A program made the translations under genes and the position numbers. This document shows, one piece after another, positions 55,191-61,161 of a DNA stretch of 64,000 bases. The DNA is from Flavobacteriales bacterium (GTDB lineage: Bacteria; Bacteroidota; Bacteroidia; Flavobacteriales_C; GCA-002722245), in contig JAHEZL010000002.1 in assembly GCA_023251095.1 (NCBI GenBank), positions 1-64,000 of the forward strand, read 5' to 3'. Below the pieces are notes generated by a model, which was given only the letters and a program-made list of their open reading frames with translations, was not told the origin of the DNA and ran no database searches. Positions within the stretch are counted from its first letter, which is position 1. Each line of letters opens with the position of its first letter.

Positions 55191-55712
55191 ATGCTTTCCA
55201 AAAAAGTACAAGACACCTTAAACAAACAAATTTTATTAGAAGCCGAATCATCAAACCTTTATCTCGCCATGGCATCATGGTCGGAAAACAAAGGATTGAG
55301 CGGAACTTCCGAATTTTTATACCGTCACTCCGACGAGGAAAGAACGCACATGCTGAAGCTGGTGCGTTATGTTAACGAAAGAGGCGGACAGGCAAAAATA
55401 CCGGCCCTTAAACAACCTCCTGTAGATTTTACATCCTTAACAGCTTTGTTCGAAGGATTGTTGAAACACGAAATTTTTGTATCAGAAGAAATAAATAATG
55501 TGGTGGACACTTGCTTGAAAGAGAAAGATTTTACCACTCACAATTTCATGCAATGGTACGTTGCCGAACAAATTGAGGAAGAGGCAACAGCCAGAAAAGT
55601 AATGGATAAATTACACCTGATCGGTAACGATAAAGGAGGCTTGTATTTATTCGACAGAGATTTGGAAAACTTAGCGGGACAGTCGGTTGCAACCGGCGCC
55701 AAAGGCCAATAA
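55191..55712 (+). CDS. ftnA: Non-heme ferritin
   Basis: 173 residues, four-helix bundle. The ferroxidase glutamates and histidine are visible in LLEAESSNLYLAMASW, HSDEERTHMLKL and QIEEEATARKV. Stores iron as ferric mineral in the cytosol. No heme-binding Met of bacterioferritin is obvious. Confidence 0.94.
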   Translation: MLSKKVQDTLNKQILLEAESSNLYLAMASWSENKGLSGTSEFLYRHSDEERTHMLKLVRYVNERGGQAKIPALKQPPVDFTSLTALFEGLLKHEIFVSEEINNVVDTCLKEKDFTTHNFMQWYVAEQIEEEATARKVMDKLHLIGNDKGGLYLFDRDLENLAGQSVATGAKGQ

Positions 55713-55743
55713 TAATAGGGAATAATATTTTAGTTGTAGTATT

Positions 55744-56103
55744 TTGATCAGATTAATTGCGACCATATCCATAGTGCTTGGCGCCGCTCTTTTTGCGGGT
55801 TGTCACAGAACCTATTACGATGACACCGTTAGAACACCTCGTGGTGCAAAGGGATACCACGACAGTTATAGCACCAGAGGTTATCAAAAGAAAAAAGTGA
55901 AACTGGATGATTCTTATTCTTCAGATCGCCACAGCACCAAAAAACAAGCAGAATACGCCGATAGTTATTCGGTGAAATCCAAAAAAAACTCAGGCAGTAA
56001 ATACAAAGATTCTTATTCTTCAGGAAACGGTAGAAAAAGAAAACTCAAATTTTACGACAGCTTCTCTTCCAAAAAAAGAAAGAATATTTTTCTGTCGAAA
56101 TAA
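55744..56103 (+). CDS. Lipoprotein with five DSYS repeats
   Basis: 119 residues. Start is the TTG at 55744, needed for the signal peptide (MIRLIATISIVLGAALFAGC), with lipobox Cys at 20. The mature part is basic and carries DSYS at 40, 56, 73 and 89 and DSFS at 105, a period of 16-17 residues, separated by K/R-rich linkers. No known domain. It lies between ferritin and the cyclase gene, 31 nt after the former. A surface or periplasmic matrix role is a guess. Confidence 0.72.
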   Translation: MIRLIATISIVLGAALFAGCHRTYYDDTVRTPRGAKGYHDSYSTRGYQKKKVKLDDSYSSDRHSTKKQAEYADSYSVKSKKNSGSKYKDSYSSGNGRKRKLKFYDSFSSKKRKNIFLSK

Positions 56104-56203: not shown

Positions 56204-59200
56204 TTGAGGGCATATTTTTTAATTTTTTGTTTGTTTTGTTTCGGACTTTTGTCGGGACAAAGCGATGATATTAAGTTCAGCAGATTTACTACCAAAGCCG
56301 GACTTTCCCACAACATAGTCAACGAAGTTATTCAGGACGGAAGAGGTTTCATGTGGTTTGGAACCCAGGATGGATTGAACCGCTACGACGGTTATACTTT
56401 CGTGGTGTACAAGCCTGATTTGTACGACAGCACCTCTTTATCCAACAACCGTATCACTGCTTTGTGCTACGATCCGCGCGGATTTATCTGGGTGGGAACT
56501 GCTGCGGGATTGAACATTTATAAAATCGACAGCGATCAGTTTATTTCTTTGGCCAATTTAGCCGGCGGTTCATTGGCCGCCAGCAAACTCGCTATTCAGG
56601 CCTTATACAGAGATCAGCTCGGTACTATCTGGGTGGCTACACGCGATGGCGGATTAAGTAAAATGACCATTACCGGCAGTGATCTGGAAAGCATTCAGGT
56701 AAAACATTTTGTGTACAAACACAAAGATCCTAATTCCATAAGCTCCAATAATGTTACCGCTATCACGCAGGATGCATCGGGTTTTGTGTGGGTGGGAACC
56801 GACAATGGATTGAATATTTACAATCCTAAAACAGAAGACTTCAAAAGAATTTTAACCGGCGAAACAAAACATGAAATGTTATCGCACTTTTATGTCACTT
56901 CTATTTTTGAAGATTCAAAAGGAGATGTTTGGGTGGGAACTAAAAATGGCCTGAACAGAGTAATGATTGATGAAACAGATTTAAAAAATGTTCAGTTCAA
57001 ATCGCATCCCTATTTTCATAATCCGCGAAATCATTATTCTATTTCCGACAACCGCATAGAAAACATTTTTCAGGATGCGGAAGGAGTGTTGTGGATAGGA
57101 ACGGATTACGGATTAAACGCCATCGACTTAAGCTCGAAATCGGCCAAAGACACCACTTTTCATTTTTCTAAATATTTTTCCGAAGCCATTAAAGAGCTGT
57201 CGCTGGCGCACAATAAAGTCAATAAAATTTATCAGGATGAATCGGGAATCATCTGGCTGGCCACAGAAAGAGGCATCAGCAAATTCGATAAGCTGAAACA
57301 AAAACTACAAAATTATTCTCTGGAGCAGTACTGGGACATTACCACGCACACCATCAATGTATGGTCGTTTTGTGAAGATGACGCAGGCGCTTCATGGGTG
57401 GGTAATGAAAAGGGATTGTGCTACATCAACCGCAAAAAAGGCACCACGCATAAGGTGATGGCAAAAGAGGCCATGAATGTTTATGCGCTATGCTACGACA
57501 AGAAAAAAAGAGTTTTGGCGGGAACGGATCAGGGACTTTTCATCGTGGAAAAAAGCAGCGATACTTCCTATGTCTTAAAACGCTACGCTTTGCCCGGCAT
57601 TAAAGATTTTACCGATCCTGTTTATTCTATTGTATGCGATTCCAGAGGCACTTACTGGATAGGAGGATCAAGAGGTTTGGTGGTGATGAACGCAAACGAA
57701 ACCAAGGCCTTCAAGCATTATTACGATGTAAATAATTTTAAAGGAATAGGGAAAGGTGCCGTAAATTTTATTTTTGAAGACGAAGGACACACCATCTGGA
57801 TCGCTACCAATGGCGGGGGTTTAAACAAGGTGTTGAATCCTACGGATTTGAATTTACTTCAGTTTTTAAAAATTACCCACGATAAAAAAATTCCTTATTC
57901 TTTAAACAATGACGCTATTCTTTGTATAGAAGAATATCCGAAAGGCACGCTGTGGTTGGGAACTTACGGTGGTGGTTTAAATAAATACGATTCGCAGCGC
58001 GCAAGAGCCAAACACTTTACCGAACAAAACGGCTTGAGCAACAACATCGTTTATGGTATTTTAAAAGACAATGCCGGAAAACTCTGGCTCAGTACCAATA
58101 AAGGTCTTTCCAAGTTTGATCCTGTTTCCGAAAAATTCAGAGTGTTCAAAGAAGAAGACGGTTTACAAAGTGATGAATTTAACAAAGGCGCTTATTACCG
58201 TTCGGTCAAAGGGGAAATGTATTTCGGAGGCATCAATGGCTTCAACGTGTTTTTTCCTGCTGATGTCAGGCCCAATAAAATACCGCCGAAAATTGCGCTC
58301 ACCGCTCTTTTATTGTCGAATAAACTGATTGAACCCGGACCGAATTCTTTGTTGAAAAAAGACATTAATTCTTTGGAGTACATTGAAATTCCTTACGTTG
58401 ACAACGCCATCACCATTCGTTATTCGGGCCTGCATTTCACGTCGCCCGAGAACAATCAGTATTCTTATATCCTCGAAGGATTCATGGAAAATTGGCAGGA
58501 TGTAGGCAATAAAAGAGAGGTAAGTTTCACCAATCTCGATCCGGGAATTTATACTTTCCGTGTGCGCGCAGCCAACAGCGACGGCATAAAATCGAACGAC
58601 GTGCCTTCTCTTAAAATCATTATCACACCGCCTTTCTGGATGACCTGGTGGTTCCGCACCTTTATCATTGCCATTGTTTTGGCGATAGTGCTGGGTGTTT
58701 ATTACTCGAGGGTAGCCATCATTAAAACACAAAAACGAGTGCTGGAATACAAGGTACAGCAACGTACCGAGGAGGTGATGCAGAAAAAGGCGGAGATAGA
58801 GGAGCAAAAGGAAAAACTGGAAATAGAGAAAAATAAAACCGAACAGCTTTTATTGAATATCCTTCCTGCCGAAACAGCGAAAGAGTTGTTGTCTACCGGT
58901 CGCGCTGCCCCACGTCACTACAGAATGGTTACTGTGTTGTTTGCCGACTTCAAAGGCTTTACGCAAATAGCAGAACGTCTTCGTCCGGCGGAACTCGTAG
59001 AGGAATTGGATACTGCCTTCAATGCTTTTGACGATATTGCCGATAAGCACAACATTGAAAAAATTAAAACCAGCGGGGATGCCTACATGGCTGCGGGAGG
59101 TGTGCCTATCCGTAACAAAACCAATCCGGTGGATTGTATTTTGGCGGCCATGCAAATTCAGGCTTATATTAAAGATCAGGGAATACTGAATGCGAACAAT

Positions 59201-60142
59201 CCCGACAAGCCGAAATGGGAATTGCGTATTGGTATTCATACCGGTGAAATTATTGCCGGGGTGGTAGGAAAGAAAAAATTTGCTTACGATATCTGGGGCG
59301 ATACGGTGAATACTGCGAGTCGCATGGAGTCCAGCTCACAGGCCGGCCATATCAATATTTCGGGAACTACTTACAACATGGTTCAGGAGTATTTTGATTG
59401 TGAATACCGCGGTAAAATTCCGGTGAAAAACAAAGGCGACATCGATATGTATTTTGTTAAGGGAATCAAAGCTGAGCTGTCGAAAGACCGCAAAGGATTT
59501 GTGCCTAACATCGCCTTCCAGGAATTGCACCATTTCAATGTTTACAGCAAGCTCAATTACAATAAAGTAAAACAGTTTGTGATCAACAAGCTGGAAAAAG
59601 AATTGCCTGAGAATTTATATTACCACGGTCCGCACCACACCCGAGATGTTGTTCAGGCAGCCGAAAGAATTGGTAAGGCTGAAGGATTGGATCCGGAAGA
59701 ATTGATGTTGGTGAAAATGGCGTCGCTGTTGCACGATGCGGGCTTCCTCAATAAGTACTGGAGCAATGAACCTGAAGGGGTGAAAATCGCCAAGGAGATG
59801 TTGCCTGCTTACGGATTTACCGATTCACAAATTGATATCATTGAAGGTTTGATCATGGCCACCAGCATTCCGCAAAAACCGACCAATCATCTGGAAGAAA
59901 TTATTTGTGATGCCGATTTGGATTATTTGGGTCGTGAGGATTTTGAAAAAATCAGTTTGACTTTACAGCAGGAGTTGCTGGATTACGGCGGCATCAAAAA
60001 CCCCGAAGACTGGGATCCTATTCAGGTGAAGTTTTTAACTGCGCACAAGTATTTTACCAAAACGAATATTGAAACGCGTCAGGTGAAGAAGGAAGAGCAT
60101 TTGGATAATATTAAGAAGAGGATAGAGGCGAATAGTAAGTAG
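56204..60142 (+). CDS. Propeller sensor/adenylate cyclase/HD fusion
   Basis: 1312 residues, TTG start (no ATG before the signal peptide RAYFLIFCLFCFGLLSGQ). Periplasmic two-component propeller about 20-700, Y_Y_Y domain about 733-805, one helix about 812-835, coiled coil about 838-880. Class III cyclase about 904-1087 has all six usual residues: metal D915 and D959, adenine-selecting K955 and D1029, transition-state N1036 and R1040. So cAMP, not cGMP, is the predicted product. The C-terminal domain about 1125-1290 is HD-like (H1144-H1145, H1177-D1178, CDADLDYLG near 1235), possibly a phosphohydrolase. Ends just before a repeat and terminator. Confidence 0.93.
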   Translation: MRAYFLIFCLFCFGLLSGQSDDIKFSRFTTKAGLSHNIVNEVIQDGRGFMWFGTQDGLNRYDGYTFVVYKPDLYDSTSLSNNRITALCYDPRGFIWVGTAAGLNIYKIDSDQFISLANLAGGSLAASKLAIQALYRDQLGTIWVATRDGGLSKMTITGSDLESIQVKHFVYKHKDPNSISSNNVTAITQDASGFVWVGTDNGLNIYNPKTEDFKRILTGETKHEMLSHFYVTSIFEDSKGDVWVGTKNGLNRVMIDETDLKNVQFKSHPYFHNPRNHYSISDNRIENIFQDAEGVLWIGTDYGLNAIDLSSKSAKDTTFHFSKYFSEAIKELSLAHNKVNKIYQDESGIIWLATERGISKFDKLKQKLQNYSLEQYWDITTHTINVWSFCEDDAGASWVGNEKGLCYINRKKGTTHKVMAKEAMNVYALCYDKKKRVLAGTDQGLFIVEKSSDTSYVLKRYALPGIKDFTDPVYSIVCDSRGTYWIGGSRGLVVMNANETKAFKHYYDVNNFKGIGKGAVNFIFEDEGHTIWIATNGGGLNKVLNPTDLNLLQFLKITHDKKIPYSLNNDAILCIEEYPKGTLWLGTYGGGLNKYDSQRARAKHFTEQNGLSNNIVYGILKDNAGKLWLSTNKGLSKFDPVSEKFRVFKEEDGLQSDEFNKGAYYRSVKGEMYFGGINGFNVFFPADVRPNKIPPKIALTALLLSNKLIEPGPNSLLKKDINSLEYIEIPYVDNAITIRYSGLHFTSPENNQYSYILEGFMENWQDVGNKREVSFTNLDPGIYTFRVRAANSDGIKSNDVPSLKIIITPPFWMTWWFRTFIIAIVLAIVLGVYYSRVAIIKTQKRVLEYKVQQRTEEVMQKKAEIEEQKEKLEIEKNKTEQLLLNILPAETAKELLSTGRAAPRHYRMVTVLFADFKGFTQIAERLRPAELVEELDTAFNAFDDIADKHNIEKIKTSGDAYMAAGGVPIRNKTNPVDCILAAMQIQAYIKDQGILNANNPDKPKWELRIGIHTGEIIAGVVGKKKFAYDIWGDTVNTASRMESSSQAGHINISGTTYNMVQEYFDCEYRGKIPVKNKGDIDMYFVKGIKAELSKDRKGFVPNIAFQELHHFNVYSKLNYNKVKQFVINKLEKELPENLYYHGPHHTRDVVQAAERIGKAEGLDPEELMLVKMASLLHDAGFLNKYWSNEPEGVKIAKEMLPAYGFTDSQIDIIEGLIMATSIPQKPTNHLEEIICDADLDYLGREDFEKISLTLQQELLDYGGIKNPEDWDPIQVKFLTAHKYFTKTNIETRQVKKEEHLDNIKKRIEANSK

Positions 60143-60146
60143 TTTC

Positions 60147-60264
60147 CAAACCCACCCCTAACCCCTCCAAGGAGGGGAATCAGTTAGCTGGCATTTCCTG
60201 AAAATCAGATTGAATATGGGTAACTAGCCAATTCCCCTCCTTGGAGGGGTTAGGGGTGGGTTTG
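60147..60264. repeat. REP-like inverted repeat, 34-nt arms
   Basis: Arms 60147-60180 and 60231-60264 are perfect reverse complements, separated by 50 nt. Each arm contains CCCCTAACCCCTCCAAGGAG, itself nearly palindromic (CCCCTCC and GGAGGGG). Such CCCCTAACCCCTCC units are widely seen as dispersed intergenic repeats in this phylum. It starts 5 nt after the cyclase stop. Confidence 0.8.
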
Positions 60265-60268
60265 AATT

Positions 60269-60320
60269 AGCATCAAAAAGAAAACGCCCCGTTTTCACGA
60301 GGCGTTTTCTTTTTGATGCT
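60269..60320. terminator. Bidirectional terminator, perfect 20-bp stem
   Basis: AGCATCAAAAAGAAAACGCC at 60269-60288 pairs fully with 60301-60320 around a 12-nt loop. A/T tracts inside the arms give U runs both ways. It separates the convergent cyclase and universal stress genes. Confidence 0.9.
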
Positions 60321-60327
60321 ATTTATT

Positions 60328-61161
60328 TTACAAAGTTCTGTAGTTGTACATCGGATTTAATTCGGTGAAATCCTTGGTTGGATTTACCGTCAACACCGGG
60401 ATCTGAGCTTCATTGGTAATTAACTCTTCTTCATTTTGTTTGAACATAGGATTCAAAGTTCTGTAGTTCAAATTGATGATGGCAATTAAATCGGCATCAA
60501 CACTTACCGCGTAATGGATGCAGTGTTTTGCAAAGTCGCCGTCTTCTTCGCTGATGGCTACTTCAAAAGGAACTTTTTGTGTAGCGAAGAATTTTTTCGC
60601 GTAAGCGATATTGGCTTCCAATTGTTTTTTGGTAAAAGGATCGTCCTCTTTGTTGCCGAAAATATGAACTGTTGAGCCCAAACGTTTGGCCATAGCAGCA
60701 GTCATATCCAGTTTCAATTTGGTTTCTGCAGAAAGGTCGATAGGGAAAACGATGTTTTTATAAGTCTCCGGAGCGCGTTTGTCCTGAACAACGATAAACG
60801 GAATCACAGAAGCGGTAATAACCTTCATAGCATAACTTCCGATAAGGTGCTGAATACCTTTTCTGCCGTGGGTTCCCATGATAATGAGTTGAACGTCCAT
60901 TGCTTCGGCCACTATTGGAATTTGTTTGATGAAATCACCAACAGCTACTTTTGCTTCAGCGGTAATGCCTGATTCGCGGATACCATCTACAATGGGTTTT
61001 AATTTGGCTAAAGTGGCCTGAACCTGAGCTTCTTTTTCCACTACGTGAAGAACAATGATGTGTCCGTTCATGATAGTAGCCATCTTTTTCCCGTGGTTAA
61101 TAGCCGTTGTAGCAACTGAACTGAAATCGGTTGGGATTAAAATCTTATAATTTGTTTCCAT
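60328..61161 (-). CDS. Tandem-domain universal stress protein
   Basis: 277 residues, two UspA domains (about 1-145 and 150-277). The first has an ATP-binding pattern MGTHGRKGIQHLIGS; the second lacks a clear G-x2-G-x9-G-S/T. Cytoplasmic stress-response family. The upstream region is AT-rich with a TATATTTTTG-like -7 sequence on the minus strand near 61206. Confidence 0.9.
   Translation of the reverse strand: METNYKILIPTDFSSVATTAINHGKKMATIMNGHIIVLHVVEKEAQVQATLAKLKPIVDGIRESGITAEAKVAVGDFIKQIPIVAEAMDVQLIIMGTHGRKGIQHLIGSYAMKVITASVIPFIVVQDKRAPETYKNIVFPIDLSAETKLKLDMTAAMAKRLGSTVHIFGNKEDDPFTKKQLEANIAYAKKFFATQKVPFEVAISEEDGDFAKHCIHYAVSVDADLIAIINLNYRTLNPMFKQNEEELITNEAQIPVLTVNPTKDFTELNPMYNYRTL

Follow-up and report, generated by a model that had tools for sequence, protein, structure and literature searches.

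A predicted propeller-sensor adenylate cyclase from a Flavobacteriales bacterium carries a C-terminal HD domain resembling class I phosphodiesterases

The locus described here raises the question of what an HD domain does at the end of a receptor whose output is a class III cyclase, and in particular which nucleotide it might hydrolyse. The gene occupies positions 56204..60142 on the forward strand of the window (the whole stretch of 64,000 nucleotides that was analysed), encodes a protein of 1312 residues and begins with a TTG codon whose context is the same in a 91% identical relative (L004). Its host is a 3.6 Mb Bacteroidota genome, with unclassified Flavobacteriales MAGs as the nearest named relatives among the matches listed. 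Our analysis leads us to favour, with rather better than even confidence, a receptor-type adenylate cyclase that has its own built-in, compact class I-like cAMP phosphodiesterase; the protein probably both makes and erases its own cAMP signal.

The protein opens with a hydrophobic, signal-like N-terminal segment (residues 1-19, LRAYFLIFCLFCFGLLSGQ; 56204..56260; hydropathy 1.61 at residue 1), recognised from its sequence, and continues with 14 propeller (Reg_prop) blade motifs over residues 51-681 (56354..58246). These W-[VIL]-G-T-like motifs recur about every 47 residues and are therefore read as two seven-bladed propellers, presumably periplasmic. A Y_Y_Y domain assigned with Pfam (residues 745-807; 58436..58624) precedes a transmembrane helix at residues about 811-842 (58634..58729), which was taken from the hydropathy profile, where the single strong hydrophobic segment begins at residue 811. 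The Pfam scores for the 1312-residue protein were 173 bits for Reg_prop and 69.5 bits for Y_Y_Y. A coiled-coil-like signalling helix (residues about 843-895; 58730..58888), suggested by the sequence and by a long helix in the AF2 model (model residues 2-32), leads into the class III cyclase catalytic domain (residues 905-1087; 58916..59464) and then the HD domain (residues 1124-1312; 59573..60139), all of these features lying on the forward strand. With its 14-blade propeller, Y_Y_Y domain, one membrane helix and coiled coil, the protein resembles the hybrid two-component systems of Bacteroidota (Reg_prop-Y_Y_Y-histidine kinase-receiver-AraC). However, its output is a cyclase plus an HD domain, and no histidine kinase, receiver or AraC domain was found in it with Pfam.

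Within the genus, collinear relatives share 91, 87, 72 and 72% identity with the whole ORF, and those from other families of the class share 42-44%. In comparison with the 91% relative, dN/dS came to 0.011 in the HD, 0.015 in the cyclase and 0.043 in the sensor, ratios that are only rough because dS is close to saturation. Judged by these substitution patterns, purifying selection acts strongly on the HD part, as on the cyclase, and this selection together with the collinear relatives argues that the ORF is not a chance product.

The Guanylate_cyc model (PF00211) matched residues 905-1087 at 174.2 bits, against a cut-off of 21.9, and the closest solved structures to this domain are mammalian adenylyl cyclases 8, 5 and 9 (E 1e-53 for AC8). 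The catalytic set is present in full (D915, K955, D959, D1029, N1036, R1040 and K1075), where we take D915 and D959 to bind metal, K955 and D1029 to form the adenine pair, and N1036 and R1040 to act on the transition state. Among the fused relatives that could be scored, K955 is conserved in 84/84, D915 in 83/83, D959 in 84/84, N1036 in 85/85 and D1029 in 84/85. By every feature tested, the domain is a class III cyclase that should make cAMP, in line with the earlier note, which had described a class III cyclase with a full ATP-type residue set (D915, D959, K955, D1029, N1036 and R1040 are all intact) and whose numbering of K955, H1177 and D1178 is correct when checked against the protein.

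The cyclase could instead, or in addition, produce cGMP or, like Pycsar cyclases, a cyclic pyrimidine nucleotide, with the HD domain removing this product, but this seems to us very improbable. The PADLOC PycC models do match the cyclase region, at 62 bits at best, and Pycsar-type PycTM domains are the fusion partner in a distant clade of the HD family. Such PycC matches, weak to moderate in strength, are, however, common to class III cyclases in general, the canonical adenine pair K955/D1029 is kept in nearly all relatives, and no PycTM- or PycTIR-type effector ORF, or other effector gene, was found adjoining the window gene. A Pycsar defence system was also considered for the locus and rejected, given the absence of an adjacent effector ORF and the adenine-type K955/D1029.

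The HD domain follows on the same chain, C-terminal to the cyclase as the earlier note had placed it, and in the AF2 model it is joined by a short linker directly after the cyclase. The superfamily motif H...HD...D is present as H1145, H1177-D1178 and D1236/D1238, accompanied by H1141, which we take to be the general-acid histidine, and by E1189, Q1274, F1277 and H1281. The metal residues are intact, and H1141, H1145, H1177, D1178, D1236 and D1238 are invariant in 118/118 HD sequences of the cyclase-linked clade, as are E1189, E1257, W1270, F1277 and H1281, while Q1274 is kept in 116 of the 118. The Pfam HD model (PF01966) scores 20.3 bits at residues 1145-1238 of the window protein, just below the curated cut-off of 22, and 23-47 bits on stand-alone and fused relatives of the same domain. 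The short linker, together with the presence of both domains on one chain in most fetched loci (the best 80 of at least 571), would suit a mainly regulatory module that binds cAMP or metal and feeds back on the cyclase without meaningful turnover. This we regard as improbable, since all predicted catalytic and metal residues, H1141 included, are invariant, and the same domain also exists on its own as an enzyme-like protein some 195 residues long.

The only two HDs of the cyclase clade with N at the Q1274 position (L048:8035-9573 and L053:8032-9582) are sister sequences in which the transition-state Arg of the cyclase is also replaced (by H and A), possibly a linked change of both active sites.

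The window protein had no match to the Pfam PDEase_I model (PF00233) at E 0.001, and the best near relative, at E 0.0019, also fell below the cut-off. Across 198 Bacteroidota genomes the model gave 0 matches, a count that is uninformative on the family elsewhere, as no control genome matched either. Because this model was not matched, we term the HD class I-like and keep it out of PDEase_I membership. The active site of PDE4 comprises a general-acid His, metal ligands, a purine Gln and a clamp Phe. Aligned with PDE4D alone (a sequence identical to PDB 5k32 at 264/265 positions), the HD profile gave in hhalign only a local match in the YHxxxHxxDV region (E 0.002), and the full-length alignment has only low posterior; at this low confidence, Q1274-V-K-F1277 falls on Q-V-G-F of PDE4D. 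The segments YHGPHHTRDVVQ, HDAGF, LIMATSIP, CDADL and IQVKF of the HD parallel YHNNIHAADVVQ, HDVDH, IVLATDMS, HCADL and SQVGF of PDE4D, and the Gln reads the purine (PMC8115329).

The AF2 model of the HD has a mean pLDDT of 97.7. When compared with solved structures in VIA-align, its top row was PDE10A (Z 17.4, 2.6 A, 187/191 residues), with PDE7A, PDE2A, PDE5 and PDE6 next at Z near 17. The HD hydrolase of unknown function 2pq7 was tied with these PDEs (Z 17.2) over 159 residues, and nearly all remaining listed rows were class I PDEs at 181-187 residues. As PDEs are heavily over-represented in the PDB, the number of PDE rows means little, and weight was placed on full-length coverage instead of row count. 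Foldseek with the HD model placed 2pq7 and the HD protein YpgQ, whose structure includes ADP, ahead of PDE5 and PDE4; with the whole cytoplasmic model its matches were all taken up by cyclases and are uninformative on the HD. The predicted fold of the HD is therefore that of a class I PDE catalytic domain, tied with 2pq7. It shares with the eukaryotic class I enzymes (PDE4, 5, 7 and 10) this fold over 181-187 of 191 residues, the H...H...HD...D ligands and, by a low-confidence alignment, a Q-V-x-F motif near the C-terminus, but falls about 70 residues short of their length in the aligned range, is only 14-21% identical and leaves PDEase_I unmatched.

The occurrence of the HD family beside cyclases bears directly on its likely substrate. 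A scan of 84,980 genomes gave at least 571 confirmed relatives, the best 80 of which were fetched. The propeller, cyclase and HD occur together in 53 of these 80 loci, mostly from Flavobacteriales MAGs, a share skewed towards this architecture because the fetched loci are the closest relatives; counted over 81 loci, the 53 are joined by 16 other cyclase-HD fusions. Two isolates, Brumimicrobium aurantiacum and B. salinarum, have the full architecture. Conservation of the design extends across one bacterial phylum, and this genome search, which the earlier note had called for, shows that its description of the architecture as exceptional was overstated, whereas its observation of cyclase and HD on one chain stands and self-limitation survives as an idea. 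Nor is the HD a constant companion of such sensors, as propeller cyclases without it are also common. These have the propeller, a Y_Y_Y-type sensor and the class III cyclase but end where the HD would begin. The same genome encodes one of them as its other class III cyclase (contig 33, 1050 aa); this protein carries the post-cyclase tail SKDDKGFVPN as in the window protein and stops exactly where the HD would start, from which we conclude that the HD is a module.

This module is found with class III cyclases in several other settings. HD-cyclase fusions stand behind receiver (L022), GAF-PAS (L035), TPR (L023) and kinase-AAA-GAF (L140) inputs, and stand-alone HDs of about 195 residues lie on the same strand downstream of a cyclase at distances of 9 bp (L091), 28 bp (L092) and 34 bp (L106), with further stand-alone copies at 40 bp (L133), 217 bp (L082) and 218 bp (L141). 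Several stand-alone HDs of the cyclase clade have no cyclase within the 9 kb of flank fetched. A class III cyclase was present in 100/198 genomes sampled across the phylum, and in 17/17 of those with the close HD subfamily as opposed to 83/181 others (Fisher p 7e-6, kinship ignored); within the class the corresponding figures are 16/16 and 11/33 (p 5e-6, kinship again ignored). The close subfamily was defined as 178 bits or more, a split set after the list was seen but backed by the HD tree, which separates the cyclase-linked clade (118 rows) from a PycTM clade (9 rows) at 100/93. In this tree, cyclase fusions arise in at least three separate places.

Other partners were also seen. Two distant relatives of the clade have the HD fused to PycTM-type or other partners and not to cyclases, and the same HD clade is also found joined to a DUF2179-containing YitT membrane protein (L142:13686-15146) and at the C-terminus of 859-880-residue TPR proteins without a cyclase domain (L138:3387-5966 and L139:5099-7741). 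The GAF-PAS-cyclase-HD gene of L035 lies on a 6 kb contig, the one locus from a viral-contig scan, and is not taken as a sign of a viral function.

HD superfamily hydrolases act on many phosphoesters, and the domain could hydrolyse a different nucleotide (ppGpp, dNTP/NTP, AMP or a cyclic dinucleotide), coupling cAMP synthesis to the removal of another signal or metabolite. The ADP-bound YpgQ and the uncharacterised 2pq7 in the first Foldseek rows are consistent with this, as is a profile search with the HD in which 2pq7, 3dto, yedJ and YpgQ rank ahead of the PDEs. We nevertheless consider it unlikely: the recurring partners of the domain, in fusions and in operons, are class III cyclases and not enzymes of the GGDEF, Rel or NTP kind, and the C-terminal third with Q-V-x-F aligns to the PDEs but less to 2pq7. 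Together with the predicted fold and the Q-V-x-F motif, the cyclase fusions and operons suggest that the HD acts on the cyclic mononucleotide made by the cyclase and not on ppGpp or cyclic dinucleotides, which narrows the earlier suggestion that the protein degrades either its own product or another nucleotide.

A model for a cyclase with a built-in cAMP phosphodiesterase can be proposed. The two periplasmic propellers and the Y_Y_Y domain would read a ligand, and the signal would pass through the one membrane helix and the coiled coil to set the state of the cyclase dimer, in which the class III domains, as a homodimer, would convert ATP to cAMP. The C-terminal HD of the same chain, which has the predicted fold and probably also the active-site arrangement of eukaryotic class I enzymes, would, if active and if cAMP is its substrate, convert this same messenger to AMP. 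It is plausible that both activities operate simultaneously, and the sensor may control either or both of them; hydrolysis of the same messenger would in turn keep the signal local and brief and reset it, or let the ratio of the two activities set its sign. Crp-type proteins are possible effectors: seven cNMP-binding proteins are encoded in the genome, six of them Crp/Fnr-like by length and C-terminus (judged by eye) and one of the seven with an N-terminal receiver.

Single chains that both make and break a nucleotide messenger are familiar from the GGDEF-EAL/HD-GYP and RelA/SpoT bifunctional enzymes, which differ from the window protein in their messengers and their catalytic domains. A closer likeness is CAPE (COMBINED AC with PDE) of streptophytes, in which a class III AC and a class I PDE share one chain (PMC5159850, PMC8115329), both halves being active on cAMP in Marchantia (PMC5159850). 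Both CAPE and the window protein combine a class III adenylyl cyclase with a class I PDE, in the window protein a putative class I-like one, on one membrane-associated chain. However, the PDE of CAPE is N-terminal and full-size and its cyclase C-terminal (PMC8115329), whereas here the cyclase comes first; CAPE is eukaryotic and lacks a propeller sensor; and it has N or T in place of the purine glutamine, where the window protein has Q1274. With its domain order reversed and its bacterial origin, the window protein is not a CAPE. Within the open-access literature (subscription papers being outside its scope), we found no description of this HD family or of a protein that joins propeller, cyclase and HD.

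If our reading is right, receptors that write and erase cAMP within a single protein are in use throughout a phylum, a combination demonstrated to date in plant CAPE alone. Bacteria would then also possess, working beside its cyclase, a compact relative of the PDE fold that drugs target in humans. This is directly testable in the two Brumimicrobium isolates, and soluble cyclase-HD versions of about 527 residues should purify easily. More broadly, and with somewhat less than even confidence, we suggest that Bacteroidota may have a compact class I PDE counterpart that serves specifically class III cyclases, by fusion or in operons, as their off-switch, and that the PycTM sister clade, with another base-recognition residue, could be tuned to a different cyclic nucleotide.

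In the sister clade itself, the HD is followed by a C-terminal PycTM domain (PF18967, the Pycsar effector membrane domain; L124:3453-4640, L131:4294-5532, L125-L128 and L132). These HDs keep the metal residues, have N, T, S or D at the Q1274 position and have lost R1292 and D1240, and they often occur in genomes with no detected class III cyclase. Pyrimidine specificity was not adopted as the meaning of the non-Q residues, because CAPE with N or T at this position still hydrolyses cAMP (PMC8115329, PMC5159850).

The neighbours of the gene, at window positions 55191-56103 and 60328-61161, stay beside it in congeners. Named by eye, the upstream neighbours resemble genes for a ferritin and for a small lipoprotein (the latter with repeated DSYS motifs), and the downstream one resembles a gene for a two-domain universal stress protein. 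Just past the gene, 60147-60264 holds a large inverted repeat with 41-nt arms (93% complementary) and a 36-nt spacer, the core of which, CCCACCCCTAACCCCTCC, is found at four genomic sites, as an inverted pair at three of them. Between the convergent gene ends, 60265-60324 forms a T-rich hairpin (28-nt arms, 4-nt loop), which is likely a bidirectional terminator.
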